In this document: one piece after another, positions 17,551 to 23,549 of the stretch | Numbering within the stretch: position 1 is the stretch's first letter | Layout of the letters: the number at the start of each line of letters is the position of its first letter | DNA from: Deinococcales bacterium | GTDB taxonomy: Bacteria; Deinococcota; Deinococci; Deinococcales; JAAFIG01 | Reading direction: 5' to 3' | DNA: 64,000 bases | Assembly (NCBI GenBank): GCA_013298595.1 | Contig: JAAFIG010000010.1 | Coordinates: 1 to 64,000, forward strand | Program-made: the position numbers and the translations under genes | Notes under the pieces: generated by a model | What the model was told of the DNA's origin: nothing | Databases searched by the model: none | What the model saw: the letters and a program-made list of their open reading frames with translations, nothing else

Positions 17551-17841
17551 ATGACCACCCTTGAAATTGCCAACCCAGATTCGCAATTAACAGCGCTACT
17601 TGAACGCATAGCGCATGGTGAAGAAATTGTTTTAACACGCAATGGTTTTGAACTGGCTCGAGTCAGTCCAATTGCACAACACACCAAACCAAAGCGAATT
17701 GGTTTTCTTGAAGGAAAAATTCAAATCCATGATGATTTTGATAACACCCCAAATGTAACTGATTCCTTATCTGATGGTGAACTCGATGAGATCATTGATA
17801 CTGTTTTAGCAGAAAAACGAAAAAAGAAAACCAAACACTAA
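17551..17841 (+). CDS. Phd/YefM-type antitoxin, without a visible partner toxin
   Basis: 96 aa. The N-terminal Phd fold (IANPDSQLTALLERIAHGEEIVLTRNGFELARVSP) is clear, followed by a charged C-terminal toxin-binding tail ending in lysines. Partner toxins of this family (VapC or Doc/YoeB type) normally lie directly downstream. Here a convergent DNA methyltransferase begins 9 bases later, so the antitoxin is orphaned, possibly because the neighbouring island replaced the toxin. Confidence 0.8.
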   Translation: MTTLEIANPDSQLTALLERIAHGEEIVLTRNGFELARVSPIAQHTKPKRIGFLEGKIQIHDDFDNTPNVTDSLSDGELDEIIDTVLAEKRKKKTKH

Positions 17842-17850
17842 ACAGTTGAT

Positions 17851-19017
17851 TCAGCGACGCACTTTTGGAGTCATTAAGAAGATAAGCTCAACAGAATCTT
17901 GTCGTGGAAGGCGATTACTTTCATTTGAATTTTTTCCACCAAGGGTACTAAAACTCCCAAGTACTTTTTCTTTTACAGAAACTCTAAACCATTTCTTAGC
18001 TAACTTATGAACAAGATCTCCAGAAAGTCCATTACTACATTTATTTTTTGGAAATGTAAAAATCAATGTTGCCCCTGTTCCTGCTAATCCTGCCAACAAA
18101 TTCTCAAGCGCAACTTTGGATTTTGAATGTAAACTAAAATCGGATTTAGGTCTGTATTTTGCATCAGGGTATCGTCCTTCTCCTGTTACCTCTCCACATC
18201 TACCTTGCGAGATAGTCTCTAAAACATGATAAAATCGACTGTACTGTTCAGAAGAGTATGGTGGATCAACAAATACTAAATCTGTAGCATTTAATTGTTC
18301 AAAAACCGTAAAAGCATCAGCACAAAGCGCTTCACCTTGAACATTTGCACACTGTACAGCCAGTTCACCAAGTGCCTTCTTCACGGATTCAATAAAGTCT
18401 CGATTCCAAGCCTGTACAACGTATTTACCTCCAGTTTCTGTCGGCTTGAAAGGCTGTGCGGTATGTCCAGGCGAAGCCACACAACGACTCGCAGCAATTA
18501 ATAAAGCTGCTAAAGCAATATTGCGGTCTGGTTCGTTCTCTGGTAAATACTTTCGCAAATAATCACAGGTAAGTGCTTGGAGTGGGCTAAAGTAAAAACC
18601 TCCATACGCAGCCCAAACAGCACCTATACGAGCAATCTTTGTACATAAAAGACGTGCTTTTGCAACTTGATAGACTAGAGTATGTCCTTCTGAAACTAAA
18701 CTTGCTTCCACAGCTTCGTTATATAAGGGGTGTTGCTTGAGCCTTTTTAGCACAGGTTCAAGCCAATCAGTCTCAAAAATAAGAGAATCGAAAACTGTTA
18801 CACGTTCAATTACGGAAGCTGCAAAGACTCGAGAATACTCCTGCAAATCCGTAGCAAGAACTGGTTTATTCAATTCTTGAGACGCAAAATGAGCTACTGA
18901 ACCCGACCCTGAGAATAAATCAACGAAACGATTATATTGTGGTTTATTACCCACTTTTCGGATTAGTTCACCCAATCCGTTTTGTAACATAAACCGTTTT
19001 GAACCCATATATTTCAT
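17851..19017 (-). CDS. DNA adenine-N6 methyltransferase (D12 class) of the HerA-NurA operon
   Basis: 388 aa. The N-terminal MKYMGSKRFML is the usual opening of D12-class enzymes, followed by the SAM-binding motif VDLFSGSGSVAHF (about residues 32-44) and the catalytic VDPPYSSEQYSRFYHVLE (DPPY about residues 250-253) that marks N6-adenine or N4-cytosine methylation. A target-recognition region lies between them. It is the third gene of a tight operon: 5 bases after the NurA-like gene. Only one CTCGAG occurs in the gene and the sequence is AT-rich, unlike flanking genes. It could protect host DNA from the associated HerA-NurA machine; the recognition site is unknown. Confidence 0.85.
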   Translation of the reverse strand: MKYMGSKRFMLQNGLGELIRKVGNKPQYNRFVDLFSGSGSVAHFASQELNKPVLATDLQEYSRVFAASVIERVTVFDSLIFETDWLEPVLKRLKQHPLYNEAVEASLVSEGHTLVYQVAKARLLCTKIARIGAVWAAYGGFYFSPLQALTCDYLRKYLPENEPDRNIALAALLIAASRCVASPGHTAQPFKPTETGGKYVVQAWNRDFIESVKKALGELAVQCANVQGEALCADAFTVFEQLNATDLVFVDPPYSSEQYSRFYHVLETISQGRCGEVTGEGRYPDAKYRPKSDFSLHSKSKVALENLLAGLAGTGATLIFTFPKNKCSNGLSGDLVHKLAKKWFRVSVKEKVLGSFSTLGGKNSNESNRLPRQDSVELIFLMTPKVRR

Positions 19018-19022
19018 AAATT

Positions 19023-20324
19023 TTAATCCCGCAGTAATCTTTGTGCGAAGCGCTCGAGAATACCTTTTGATGGATTTTCTGAAATTGAGGCTAAAGAATT
19101 AGCTAACTTCAATGGCACAAGAGCATTTTCATGAGCTGAACTTAACATTTCAGATAACACAGACATTGATTCTTGAAAACCCATTAAGTCACTCATAGTT
19201 GGGTTCAATGGAAAATTCCCTGTAGGTATGTTAAAAGCCACAACATGATCTTTCCCAAGACGGACAACAACCTTACTACCATATTGTGAACGATAGTTAT
19301 CAATGTCGTCGTTATAGACGAAACCTTTGATACGTTCCTGAAGATATTTCATATTTGGCAGAAAAAAGTCACCAGACTCTTTTAGTGATTCTTGAATCAT
19401 CGGTATATGCGAAACCAACTCACCTGTTTTCTCGACTCCAACAGCATGAACTGTGATTTCTTGAGTACGCAAATGCTCAAAAAAAGCGCGAACTGCAAAA
19501 ACTAAACGAGAAAGTTGAGAACGTAAAACCAAAGGTCCATCCTTGACAAAAAGTGTCTCAGCAAGCGCTTTGGGGTTATTACTAAGTTTTATTATCATTC
19601 CAAGAAGTAACAAATTTTCAGATACACTAGCAAGATCAGAAATTACGTTCTCACGTGCCCAGTCTTCTGGCATTGAATGAACTAACTGCAAGTAATCTGA
19701 CAAAGTATGTGCTTGTCCGCAACTTGGACATGCAAACATAATTTTGTTGCGCGGCAAAACCATGGTCTTAGCGCATTTGATACAACCCATGTTCTCTACC
19801 ATTTCATACTTTGGCAACCATAATCTCGAGATCAGATAGTTTAGAGGTTCATAGAGTCCTTCTCGGGTAAAAAATTCATGAATAATGTTACGAATGGTTT
19901 GCACGACAGTATATCCAGGAATAGCAATACCAGACAAAGGCAATGCCACAGCAATAGTACCGTGATTACCCTCTAATTGACGTGTTAAATCTCTCGGATC
20001 AATAATTGGATTGATTTGCATTGCCCGAACTTCTTGTAAATTTAGTGTAACAACAGTAGCTGACATAAATGAAAGACTCTTAGAGCGTTTTAAGCTGTTT
20101 GGAATGGTTAAATAACTACCATCAATAGCTACAATTGTTTCAATTTTTCCTGTTTTAGTAAGATCAAGTTGACCAGATAATTCACCAATAAGTTCAACAC
20201 TTGAGTCGTCTGTATTTTCAAAAGCTGCAATTAAACTTTGAATGTGCGGCTCGTTAATGAGCTTTATATGCCCAATTTTAGAAGCAAATTCCGCAGGAAG
20301 CACAGTGCCAGCAGGACTTGCCAT
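19023..20324 (-). CDS. NurA-domain nuclease with zinc ribbon
   Basis: 433 aa. NurA nucleases work with HerA ATPases to resect DNA ends. The catalytic-type motif VAIDGSY (Asp about residue 68) opens the NurA fold; KDGPLVLRSQ (about residue 265) gives the second acidic site; GVEKTGELVSHI and the C-terminal VPLKLANSLASIS correspond to the later conserved blocks, with Asn where many NurAs have His. A CxxC-CxxC zinc ribbon (CIKCAK and CPSCGQ, about residues 180-201) is inserted, which is not usual for archaeal NurA. Its ATG overlaps the herA stop (TAATG), so the two proteins are made together. Confidence 0.7.
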   Translation of the reverse strand: MASPAGTVLPAEFASKIGHIKLINEPHIQSLIAAFENTDDSSVELIGELSGQLDLTKTGKIETIVAIDGSYLTIPNSLKRSKSLSFMSATVVTLNLQEVRAMQINPIIDPRDLTRQLEGNHGTIAVALPLSGIAIPGYTVVQTIRNIIHEFFTREGLYEPLNYLISRLWLPKYEMVENMGCIKCAKTMVLPRNKIMFACPSCGQAHTLSDYLQLVHSMPEDWARENVISDLASVSENLLLLGMIIKLSNNPKALAETLFVKDGPLVLRSQLSRLVFAVRAFFEHLRTQEITVHAVGVEKTGELVSHIPMIQESLKESGDFFLPNMKYLQERIKGFVYNDDIDNYRSQYGSKVVVRLGKDHVVAFNIPTGNFPLNPTMSDLMGFQESMSVLSEMLSSAHENALVPLKLANSLASISENPSKGILERFAQRLLRD

Positions 20325-22390
20325 TAGACATCAACCTTTTTATCTGTGGTATCAGTATGTTCAAATAAACGAATTTGAACAGGTAAAGCGTACCGATGTG
20401 ACAAGGTAATCATTCGCACGTAGCCTTTGGTTTTTGACCTTTGAATATCAAGACCAATATCTTGAAATTCATAGCGTCGTTCAATTTCTCGAATTTCACG
20501 ATCATCATTTAAGTGAGCAATAAAAAAGTTCTCTGTATTCTTCAATAAATCAGGGCTAAGTGTTGTCATAGACTGCGTTGCATAAACCATTCCAACTCGG
20601 AATTTTGCTCCTTCTTTAGCCAATTTATTATAAATACTTGTTAAGTCTTTATCATCTGCACGAAATAAGTTATGGGCTTCCTCAAAGTAGAAAAGTGCAG
20701 ACTGCTTTTCAAAAACTTCTGTTTCAAGCTCGGCAAATCCTTTCATTTGTTCATTTAGGACTGCTCGAGCAATCATCTCACTGTAGAAAGTTGAAACAAT
20801 TTGATCGGCTTGTGACAAGTCAATAAGGACAGTTTTTCCATCCTTTACGTCCTTAACGATTTTTTCTGCAATACTGGAACCTTTGGGGTCATGGTAACCC
20901 TTAAAAGGTGTTAATTTTTTTGCTCCAGAAATTCCAGTGTCTCCAATCATTTTCAACAGTGCTATATGTATAGGTTCAAAATAAGGTTTACCGCTTTCTT
21001 TACTAGCAGGAAACAATTTTGCTTTTGAGGTGTTATTAAAAATGCCCCATAACTGTTCATAAACTCGCAAAGCAATATCTAAGTCCTGCGTATCAGACAT
21101 TTTTCCTAGCTCTCCATCTACTTTTGCCCTATCTCTACGAACAATGTCCTTGAGAGCATCTAAAGAAGCTAACTCCTCTCGAATTTCAGAAGTGATATGT
21201 AACTGAAGTTGCAATCTTTCTGGTGGTTCAAATCCCGCTTGTCTTAAAAGTCCTTTATACATTGAAATAGCACGTTGATACCGTGTCTTTTCACTACCAA
21301 AAGGGTCTTCTGCAAATCGTTTGTTTAGCTCGAGTTCATCAATCGGTTCCCATCCAAAAAACGGAGCCATATAGTCTGGTCGGGTTGCATGTACTGTGTT
21401 AAACAAAGAGGAAATCATTGAATGCCCAAGACTCAATTGTTCATAGAAATTAACGCGGAGTACATTTGGTTTTCTAATTCCAGCTAATTTTTCTGCTTCT
21501 GGTTCTCGAGGATTTAAACTATAACGTGTACATTTGCTTCTATGGCGCAAGTAAATACTCCCACCAGTCTGTTTATCTGGATAAGTGTACTCTCCCGATA
21601 AATCAAAAACCACTTGCCCCACTTCTTGTTTTGAATTCAACATCATTTCCAGAATAACTTTGATAGTATTTGATTTACCCATTCTGGTTTTGCCAAATAA
21701 TGCGGTGCGATTAGCAATAAAATCTTTGGGGGCAATTTGAATATCTACTGATTTTTTTGGGGCAATCAATTCAGTTTCAGTAAAACGCAAACGACCAATG
21801 TTCATTGTATCGTCACCATCAACAAATGAATTAATCAGCAGAGCAAGATGTTCGGGCTGTGGCACATAAACTTCGTAAAAATGAGGCGATAAGTACGAGT
21901 CAATATCGTTACCAAATTTCACTTCTTTACCGTCATCAAAATACGTTCCAAGAATTGAAATTTGTAATGCACCCCATTGTAGTTCAGCGCTTGTATAAGG
22001 ATCAGTAACTGCTTGCACTTTATGAATCGCAAAAATCGTGCGTTGAATATCTTGCGAGACGGGGGTAGCAACAGCTTGAGTTACTCGTCCCAAAATTAAG
22101 ATTGGAGGACGCACACTTGCACCATCAAGTTTTCTTGCTGCTTGGCTGGCTTTTATAATGATGAAAGAGTTTTTTGGCACTCCACCACATTTGAGTTTCC
22201 ATCCATCACAAGTCACAATTGTTGCTTTATCATAGTTTAGATCAAGCACGTAACCAAGAAGATGATTCCCTTTATCATTATAAGAATTAACAATATCTAC
22301 GACTAAACCTTCAAAAACAGGACGAGATCGTTCATCAGCAGAATCTGCAATCCCGTCAGCAACCTTATCCATAATGTTTTTTGAATTCAT
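20324..22390 (-). CDS. HerA-like hexameric ATPase (DUF87), first gene of a HerA-NurA-methyltransferase operon
   Basis: 688 aa. The start is the ATG at 22390, 6 bases after a GGAGG site; a longer in-frame start at 22438 lacks one. An N-terminal HAS-barrel-like beta domain (GLVVDIVNSY, GYVLDLNYDKATIV) is followed by the ATPase with Walker A FGKTRMGKSNT (about residues 232-242), VVFDLSGEYTYP, the hydrolysis motif FYFEEAHNLF and a sensor/arginine region (IREIERRYEF). HerA proteins form hexameric DNA translocases. The gene uses AT-rich codons and holds few CTCGAG copies. With the NurA-like and methyltransferase genes it forms a self-contained module that could act in phage defence or restriction. 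Confidence 0.85.
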   Translation of the reverse strand: MNSKNIMDKVADGIADSADERSRPVFEGLVVDIVNSYNDKGNHLLGYVLDLNYDKATIVTCDGWKLKCGGVPKNSFIIIKASQAARKLDGASVRPPILILGRVTQAVATPVSQDIQRTIFAIHKVQAVTDPYTSAELQWGALQISILGTYFDDGKEVKFGNDIDSYLSPHFYEVYVPQPEHLALLINSFVDGDDTMNIGRLRFTETELIAPKKSVDIQIAPKDFIANRTALFGKTRMGKSNTIKVILEMMLNSKQEVGQVVFDLSGEYTYPDKQTGGSIYLRHRSKCTRYSLNPREPEAEKLAGIRKPNVLRVNFYEQLSLGHSMISSLFNTVHATRPDYMAPFFGWEPIDELELNKRFAEDPFGSEKTRYQRAISMYKGLLRQAGFEPPERLQLQLHITSEIREELASLDALKDIVRRDRAKVDGELGKMSDTQDLDIALRVYEQLWGIFNNTSKAKLFPASKESGKPYFEPIHIALLKMIGDTGISGAKKLTPFKGYHDPKGSSIAEKIVKDVKDGKTVLIDLSQADQIVSTFYSEMIARAVLNEQMKGFAELETEVFEKQSALFYFEEAHNLFRADDKDLTSIYNKLAKEGAKFRVGMVYATQSMTTLSPDLLKNTENFFIAHLNDDREIREIERRYEFQDIGLDIQRSKTKGYVRMITLSHRYALPVQIRLFEHTDTTDKKVDV

Positions 22391-22437
22391 AATAGCCTCC
22401 GTGGTGCATACCTGAGCTGTCAAACAAGTATATCTCA

Positions 22438-22663
22438 CGAATACGTTTGCAGTACACTCCCATGGCTTCTTTTGTCAGTATTTTGCTTGCCAAGCAGGTT
22501 CAGCCTAACACAGCCCAAAATAACTTCTGGATGCTCACCTAGACGTATCAATTCGTTAATGACATCATCAAATTCGGTTGGAGTGACTGATCCAGATACA
22601 AAATCCATAAGCGAGTGTGCCTTCTGAAATAGTTGTTAATTTCTCGAGGGTTGGTTTAGTCAT
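22438..22663 (-). pseudogene. Probable frameshifted small gene upstream of herA
   Basis: An ATG at 22663 with an AGGA site opens MTKPTLEKLTTISEGTLAYG and then meets a stop. A second minus-strand frame starting at 22609 continues as MDFVSGSVTPTEFDDVINEL followed by a hydrophobic-acidic stretch, ending near 22438. The two halves join smoothly at the overlap if one base were lost or gained, suggesting a broken gene of about 75 codons or an assembly error. No family is recognised. Confidence 0.4.
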
Positions 22664-22694: not shown

Positions 22695-23549
22695 CTAAGC
22701 ACTTTCCAAATCTTTTAAGGTTTTTCCTACACTATTTTTCCACATCATCAAACCATTCACATTGCCGCCATGTATCAGTGTTGCAGCAGCACTAGGACTA
22801 CTAAATTCAGCATCTCGAGTAAATACTAAGTTATCACCTTGAATTTGAAGTACTCCATCCTCGAGAAATTGTTTTTGTGTCCGAACTAAAAATGGATTAC
22901 CTGTTTGGGCTGCTGCACGAATTTCAGTTACTGCTTGGGAACCAGCAAATACTACAAACCCATTGGGAGTACGTCGTCCTTGTGCTGTCAATCCCTTGAT
23001 ACTGGTTGTTAATTTTTCTGAAACTTGAGCGTCTTTTTCAAGAGGGGTAACAGGTGTAAGTAAGTCCGAACCTAAAATGGGCAAAAGCTGTTTTATATTC
23101 AATAAAAAATCTTCCATGCTATCCCGATCAGCTTCGGGTAACTTTGCACCACTTGAAACCGAGTTTTCTAAATCCGCTCGGTCAATTGCCTTTGCTTCTT
23201 CTAAAATCCTACCTTCAAGAAATTTGATATGTGCTTTTGTTAAAAGATTACTCGTACCGACAAAAACAATAATAGACACCCAAAAATCTTTGCTCCTGTG
23301 AGCCTTTAGACGCTCGCCTAAGTCTTCAGTTTCTCCAACATAAACAAGCGCCCGTCCTGTTTGAGGATCAGTCCCTGAAAGAATATAAACACCTGATTCT
23401 TTCAATTCAGGTCGTTGCAACAATTCATCAAGGTCAGTTCTAGGTGCAGCCAGTCCTTTGCCATTCCAATTAGAAATTTCGGCAACACGAAGTCGATTTG
23501 GATCACGAAACCTCAAATACAATGTAATTTTTGTGCCAAGAATAGGCAT
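22695..23549 (-). CDS. GIY-YIG nuclease-domain protein with C-terminal DUF4357
   Basis: 284 aa. The GIY-YIG domain lies at about residues 50-140 (GVYILSG, then VYVGETEDLGERLKAH). Glu in FLEGRILEEA is the likely metal-binding residue. The C-terminal DUF4357 module (SPSAAATLIHGGNVNGLMMW, then KTLKDLE) is the usual partner of this GIY-YIG type in defence-associated proteins. Its ATG overlaps the argS stop (TAATG), so it is translationally coupled to a housekeeping gene, an unexpected pairing. It may sense or cleave nucleic acid; a link to the HerA-NurA island next door is possible. Confidence 0.8.
   Translation of the reverse strand: MPILGTKITLYLRFRDPNRLRVAEISNWNGKGLAAPRTDLDELLQRPELKESGVYILSGTDPQTGRALVYVGETEDLGERLKAHRSKDFWVSIIVFVGTSNLLTKAHIKFLEGRILEEAKAIDRADLENSVSSGAKLPEADRDSMEDFLLNIKQLLPILGSDLLTPVTPLEKDAQVSEKLTTSIKGLTAQGRRTPNGFVVFAGSQAVTEIRAAAQTGNPFLVRTQKQFLEDGVLQIQGDNLVFTRDAEFSSPSAAATLIHGGNVNGLMMWKNSVGKTLKDLESA

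Follow-up and report, generated by a model that had tools for sequence, protein, structure and literature searches.

Organization of the Locus

The window examined here, which is a 64-kb stretch of DNA from a member of Deinococcota taken at its full length, carries three adjoining genes for a HerA-type DNA translocase, a NurA/TdpB-like nuclease and a D12-class DNA adenine methyltransferase (Table 1). A first-pass annotation made from the letters alone had read them as one minus-strand operon, and all three ORFs were found where it had placed them: the ATG of the nuclease gene overlaps the HerA stop codon as TAATG, and the methyltransferase gene starts 5 bp after the nuclease gene. For HerA, the better start is the ATG at 22390, which is preceded by GGAGG.

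Table 1. Features of the operon and its immediate surroundings (positions in the window)
Feature	Position	Strand	Details
D12-class DNA adenine methyltransferase	17851..19017	-	388 aa; PF02086
NurA/TdpB-like nuclease, RNase H-like fold, zinc-ribbon insert	19023..20324	-	433 aa
Zinc ribbon C181-C184 / C199-C202 within the nuclease	19719..19784	-	from alignments
HerA/FtsK-type hexameric DNA translocase, TdpA-like	20324..22390	-	688 aa; in-frame ORF to 22438 = 704 aa
Disrupted ORF remnant between the HerA and GIY-YIG genes	22441..22663	-	six-frame reading
GIY-YIG nuclease + DUF4357, PADLOC candidate PDC-S14	22695..23549	-	PDLC04923 E 2e-89; DUF4357 7.5e-20
Phd-like ORF	17551-17841		sub-threshold match, 16.9 bits (cut-off 29.8)

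The operon differs in composition from its surroundings, with a GC content of 0.38 versus about 0.46. The earlier estimate of about six CTCGAG sites in this AT-rich block proved exact, since six copies were counted (1.3/kb versus 5.5/kb across the window), the lowest density among all 4.6-kb windows of the stretch. Because the window as a whole is rich in this palindrome (352 copies versus 6.7 in shuffles), its depletion in the operon marks foreign DNA. The palindrome itself is iterated in a HIP1-like manner and recurs in the loci sampled from genomes G001-G003 and G008, but not in those from G004.

The gene next upstream, a GIY-YIG nuclease with a DUF4357 domain that belongs to a candidate defence family, had been overlooked; it shares the AT-rich block and the low GC content of the three genes and lies outside the conserved triad. 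Two other neighbours had been taken as signs of a mobile island, and both add little. The broken gene does have disrupted frames, but it matches no Pfam family and has no second copy in its own genome. The supposed orphan Phd antitoxin was rejected as part of the module, as it scores below threshold and has neither a partner nor a reduced CTCGAG density; on account of this score and of its native CTCGAG density, it probably does not belong to the AT-rich block. Around the flanking genes argS and rsmE, the gene order of the window is not kept in the three nearest relatives, and thus no clean empty insertion site can be demonstrated.

The Translocase and the Nuclease

TdpABC is a phosphorothioate-based anti-phage system that consists of the translocase TdpA, the nuclease TdpB and the PP-loop sulphur enzyme TdpC; the Thermus system is represented in the PDB by the entries 8wet, 8wfd and 8y1k. 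The HerA protein of the window matches the Pfam DUF87/HerA family at 50.8 bits and retains intact active-site motifs (Walker A GKTRMGKS, Walker B YFEEAHN and sensor TQS). It scores 46.6 and 24.1 bits against the anti-phage HerA models NF042943 and NF042944 of NCBIfam, below their curated cut-offs of 800 and 850. When the single sequence was compared with solved structures, TdpA ranked first (6e-21), and a 21-member profile matched TdpA in the PDB at 2.9e-46 with the next HerA protein at 6e-20, while hhalign against the Thermus TdpA family gave an E-value of 1.1e-44. Judged from these comparisons, no other solved HerA comes nearly as close to the HerA of the window as TdpA does.

The nuclease is much less accessible to family models. 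Neither this protein nor any other of the host genome matches the Pfam NurA family PF09376, with which hhalign aligned 22 columns of the nuclease only, and no nuclease family of Pfam, NCBIfam, PADLOC or PHROG scored above threshold. The nucleases of the relatives described below and TdpB of Thermus likewise match no model of Pfam, NCBIfam or PADLOC. An AlphaFold2 model built from 51 sequences (pLDDT 90) has as its top fold match in VIA-align the TdpB chain 8wfd_G, with a Z-score of 20.9 over 312 residues, compared with 10.0-14.6 for the classical NurA proteins of Sulfolobus, Thermococcus, Thermotoga and Deinococcus; a full-length hhalign comparison with TdpB gave an E-value of 5.7e-5 and a probability of 66. 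The NurA-like identity proposed for this protein is hence borne out by a model matching NurA and TdpB folds, although PF09376 is blind to it, and the predicted fold is far nearer to TdpB than to classical NurA.

In the same protein, the candidate catalytic residues D68, E236, D262 and K299 are kept in 49-51 of 51 relatives; D68, D210 and P110 are invariant, and E236, D262, K299 and the zinc-ribbon cysteines nearly so. The zinc-ribbon insert noticed at first reading was confirmed in alignments as C181/C184/C199/C202, with weak matches to zinc-ribbon families at residues 174-225, and it is missing from TdpB and from the classical NurA proteins used for comparison.

The Methyltransferase

The third gene product matches PF02086 (E 2e-17) and the PADLOC model MTase_II (2e-22) and carries a DPPY motif. 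Active sites are intact in all three proteins. It is unmatched by the common D12 profile, which places it outside the Dam-like family found in most of the relatives, and it lies on another D12 branch than the methylases of the nearest HerA relatives; given this different branch, it could be an unrelated recruit. No relative of it was found within any other triad examined. Its nearest relative, 44% identical, is encoded on the Rhizobium plasmid pRt932, where the gene group L159:4212-9739 comprises a DGQHR (DndB-like) protein, a 423-aa protein, the methylase and a 503-aa protein. This DGQHR-methylase group looks like a separate uncharacterised cassette.

Distribution and Inheritance of the Three Genes

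Searching with the nuclease gave matches for 3 of the 111 Deinococcota genomes; the nearest-relatives set comprises 60 other genomes, none of which matched. Such a distribution is not that of the syntenic housekeeping locus which the first-pass annotation had set against a role in defence, and a host DNA-repair role was rejected on this ground. The same-genus genome G001 has a distant triad elsewhere (L033), composed of HerA, NurA and a PF01555 methylase, that is AT-rich and CTCGAG-poor like the copy in the window and was too divergent to be detected by the nuclease search.

A scan of 84,980 species genomes with the HerA alignment yielded 406 relatives, and the best 80 of these 406 were annotated. 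Among these 80, NurA directly follows HerA in all 78 testable contigs, with a median gap of 3 bp, and of the 79 loci that could be tested for it, 76 have a methyltransferase no more than 300 bp away (75 within 20 bp). The adjacent methyltransferases comprise 64 D12 enzymes upstream, eight D12 enzymes downstream and four PF01555-like enzymes upstream. The loci without an adjacent methylase are L043 and L053, where one is found two genes away, and L065, which has none, in addition to the truncated contig L103. Three cyanobacterial plasmids of Nostocales (L004, L008 and L009) carry an XRE regulator followed by HerA and NurA with no adjacent methylase. The best 80 of the 406 span 18 phyla, with unassigned loci counted as one group, and six of the loci are archaeal. 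Plasmids and prophages also carry the triad or the pair: copies were found on a Deferribacter and a haloarchaeal plasmid, on the Vibrio phage PQ189353, where the copy adjoins an integrase, and on eight viral contigs. In the triad of the Deferribacter megaplasmid (L005:5129-8927), HerA is interrupted by an inserted IS200/IS605-TnpB element.

Phyla are intermingled in the HerA tree, and the window protein groups with that of a Myxococcota MAG (60% identity) rather than with a Deinococcota genome. These two features, together with the spread over 18 phyla, the distant version in G001 and the AT-rich, CTCGAG-poor copies, show that the triad is a genuine unit that has spread horizontally. A total of 11 changes of methylase class are needed on this tree, which is a quick tree with long branches flagged and in which the lack of a methylase counts as one class. 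Within the 61 triads in which a D12 gene comes first, HerA distances correlate with those of NurA (r 0.89) and of the methylase (Mantel r 0.74, 0 of 2000 permutations). The latter correlation implies that the methylase has been inherited together with the motor, and the pattern as a whole is that of an apparently cognate methyltransferase co-inherited with a predicted DNA-degrading effector, as in restriction-modification.

Neighbouring genes were compared in two distance classes. Up to 1.2 kb from the cassettes there are 138 genes, whose PADLOC matches (E<=1e-10) extend over 238 model families, with Septu PtuA, AriA, Gabija GajA, KwaB and MADS foremost, and the 114 genes more than 4 kb away have matches to 114 families; since PADLOC models are redundant, this near/far comparison of family matches is only indicative of enrichment. 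Among eight large neighbours examined one by one are restriction enzymes of types IIG, III and IV and a DrmD-like helicase, as well as a PtuA gene that directly overlaps NurA. The expected co-location with defence genes is thus seen, in the same indicative sense, for Septu, Gabija, KwaB, restriction and DISARM-like genes. Near the copy on the Vibrio phage, the depositor's notes name Shedu and Gabija genes. In the Bacteroidota loci L109:7014-13462 and L114, methylase, HerA, NurA and PtuA (the Septu ATPase) form four-gene operons with an overlap of 4 bp, which gives the appearance of a fusion between two defence modules.

Comparison with Known Systems

The closest solved relatives of both effector genes are those of TdpABC, a hexameric HerA-type translocase and a NurA-fold nuclease, and the Thermus loci L034 and L035 show the same compact three-gene arrangement of modification enzyme, translocase and nuclease. 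However, a base methyltransferase stands here in place of the PP-loop enzyme TdpC, the window nuclease has a zinc ribbon that TdpB lacks, and the order is HerA then NurA instead of TdpB then TdpA. TdpC is not present in the window operon, and its SGGKDS motif was found in the Thermus loci only; for this reason we do not class the operon as TdpABC but describe it as working like TdpABC. In one Thermus genome (G053, L165:2879-4607), TdpB is interrupted by a transposase gene.

Type I/II restriction-modification systems, of which D12 or N6/N4 methylases are typical, also have their genes for modification and cleavage joined in a single mobile operon, but cleavage here would fall to a pair of translocase-exonuclease type without a recognisable target-recognition domain. 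The anti-phage systems HerA-SIR2 and HerA-DUF4297 likewise pair an effector enzyme with a ring of HerA ATPase; their effector is not NurA, they have no methylase, and their HerA proteins match at 6e-20 to 1e-15 as against 2.9e-46 for TdpA. The classical NurA-HerA pairs of Sulfolobus, Thermococcus and Deinococcus share the ATPase and nuclease folds and differ in the PF09376 nuclease, to which the window protein is hardly alignable, and in having no methylase partner. A different PF09376 NurA-HerA pair occurs behind a 380-430 aa protein in three Deinococcota loci (L125, L126 and L134), and is possibly another defence operon.

The ICEth1 operon of Thermus thermophilus, which encodes TthHB27I/Tth111II, NurA, TdtA and a PF01555 methylase, functions in DNA donation (PMC5365140). 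It resembles the window in that NurA, a HerA-like ATPase and a methyltransferase are encoded as one operon within a mobile island of low GC content (PMC5365140); as known from its description, it differs in its type IIG enzyme, its donation role and its order of NurA, HerA and methyltransferase. Loss of the nurA-like gene lowers transfer by 4-5 orders of magnitude, and loss of the methylase has only a minor effect (PMC5365140, PMC7767461). No ORF for a type IIG enzyme or an integrase was found in the 12-28 kb section of the window. One locus of our collection with HerA and a methylase and no NurA (L036) may be an ICEth1-like cousin.

The view that the set does not match a named system therefore holds in part: PADLOC 2023, NCBIfam 2026 and Pfam contain no model for the nuclease, whereas the TdpAB core and the ICEth1 operon are already known. 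The parts and their logic are known, and it is the combination that is without a model in Pfam, NCBIfam and PADLOC. A literature search with partial journal coverage did not find the triad described as a defence system. If the restriction reading is correct, such a system would have escaped notice because no family model covers its nuclease, which plasmid records, where they annotate it, call 'DSB repair NurA'.

Proposed Mechanism and Alternative Explanations

We consider the operon likely to serve defence as a mobile restriction-modification system whose effector is of the TdpAB type. The methyltransferase would mark a short sequence throughout the host DNA; the HerA hexameric ring, by homology with TdpA and other HerA proteins, would pump double-stranded DNA; and the docked nuclease, presumably a dimer and active to judge from its fold and catalytic residues, would degrade the DNA delivered to it. 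By analogy with TdpABC, methylated self DNA would be spared and unmethylated phage or plasmid DNA destroyed, the methyl mark taking the place of the phosphorothioate. As no target-recognition domain is recognisable in HerA or the nuclease, specificity must lie in the methylase or in a separate reader. The restriction logic suggested in the first-pass annotation gains support from the spread of the unit and its defence-type neighbours, restriction itself being inferred.

The same set of genes might instead form a transjugation- or conjugation-like donation module, in which HerA exports nuclease-made ends while the methylase shields or labels the DNA being transferred. We regard this as unlikely: TdpAB, the close relatives with solved structures, function in defence against phages, the window operon has no gene for an integrase, a relaxase or DNA transfer beside it, and in most of the 80 genomes the triad lacks the IIG enzyme, the source of the ends in ICEth1. 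What speaks for donation is that the ICEth1 operon is required for it (PMC5365140, PMC7767461) and that the cassette family of the window is mobile too, as seen from the phage, the viral contigs and the phylum-mixing tree. Restriction is favoured by the lack of transfer genes here, by lone triads in 18 phyla and by the closeness to TdpAB. The loci that sit poorly with restriction are the three cyanobacterial plasmids and L065, all without an adjacent methylase, and the minor effect of methylase loss in ICEth1 is at odds with what would be predicted for a lethal restriction enzyme. The cyanobacterial pairs and this minor phenotype (PMC7767461), as well as the occurrence of the same methylase family in a different cassette of Rhizobium beside a DGQHR protein, would suit a modification-dependent or sensing system in which HerA-NurA attacks marked DNA or free ends and the methylase tunes the response without self-protection. 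This appears improbable, since a methylase that adjoins the pair in 76 of 79 loci, is tightly coupled to it and shows correlated distances fits the picture of an obligate partner.

Two further explanations carry even less weight. The copies on the Vibrio phage beside an integrase and on eight viral contigs might point to a module for genome processing or competition that is encoded by a phage or plasmid and defends the element rather than the host, but most copies are chromosomal with no virus genes nearby, and the Shedu and Gabija labels around the phage copy fit a defence region, which makes this very unlikely. That the genes perform ordinary HerA-NurA end resection and repair, with a methylase adjacent by chance, is hardly credible: HerA-NurA pairs of archaea and Deinococcus do act in end processing and the host genome lacks a classical NurA, but the nearest relatives G001-G003 lack one as well, so that the operon is no replacement for it; moreover, the nuclease is not orthologous to PF09376 NurA, its occurrence in Deinococcota is sporadic, and the methylase association extends over 18 phyla.

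Under the restriction-modification reading, the modification enzymes found on the core are the PP-loop phosphorothioate enzyme of TdpABC, Dam-like D12 enzymes, PF01555-type enzymes and the divergent D12 enzyme of the window. The comparison across loci shows the translocase-nuclease pair to be the constant core and the modification enzyme to be the part that is exchanged. A bolder proposal, which we put forward tentatively and hold to be somewhat short of probable, is that unrelated marks (backbone sulphur, Dam-like m6A and PF01555-type) are swapped into one TdpAB-like core, making up a widespread unnamed class of restriction-modification systems. If this were true, a single effector would read self from very different marks, perhaps because it is halted by any mark that affects passage through the HerA-NurA channel, with no specific reader involved.

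Implications

If correct, the proposed function would reveal a common unnamed restriction system present in at least about 400 of the 84,980 sampled species, in which genome annotation may label a defence nuclease as a repair enzyme. It would also join methyltransferase-based restriction to TdpABC and to the transfer operon of ICEth1 as one modular family, and it raises the question of how the same motor-nuclease core recognises chemically different self marks.
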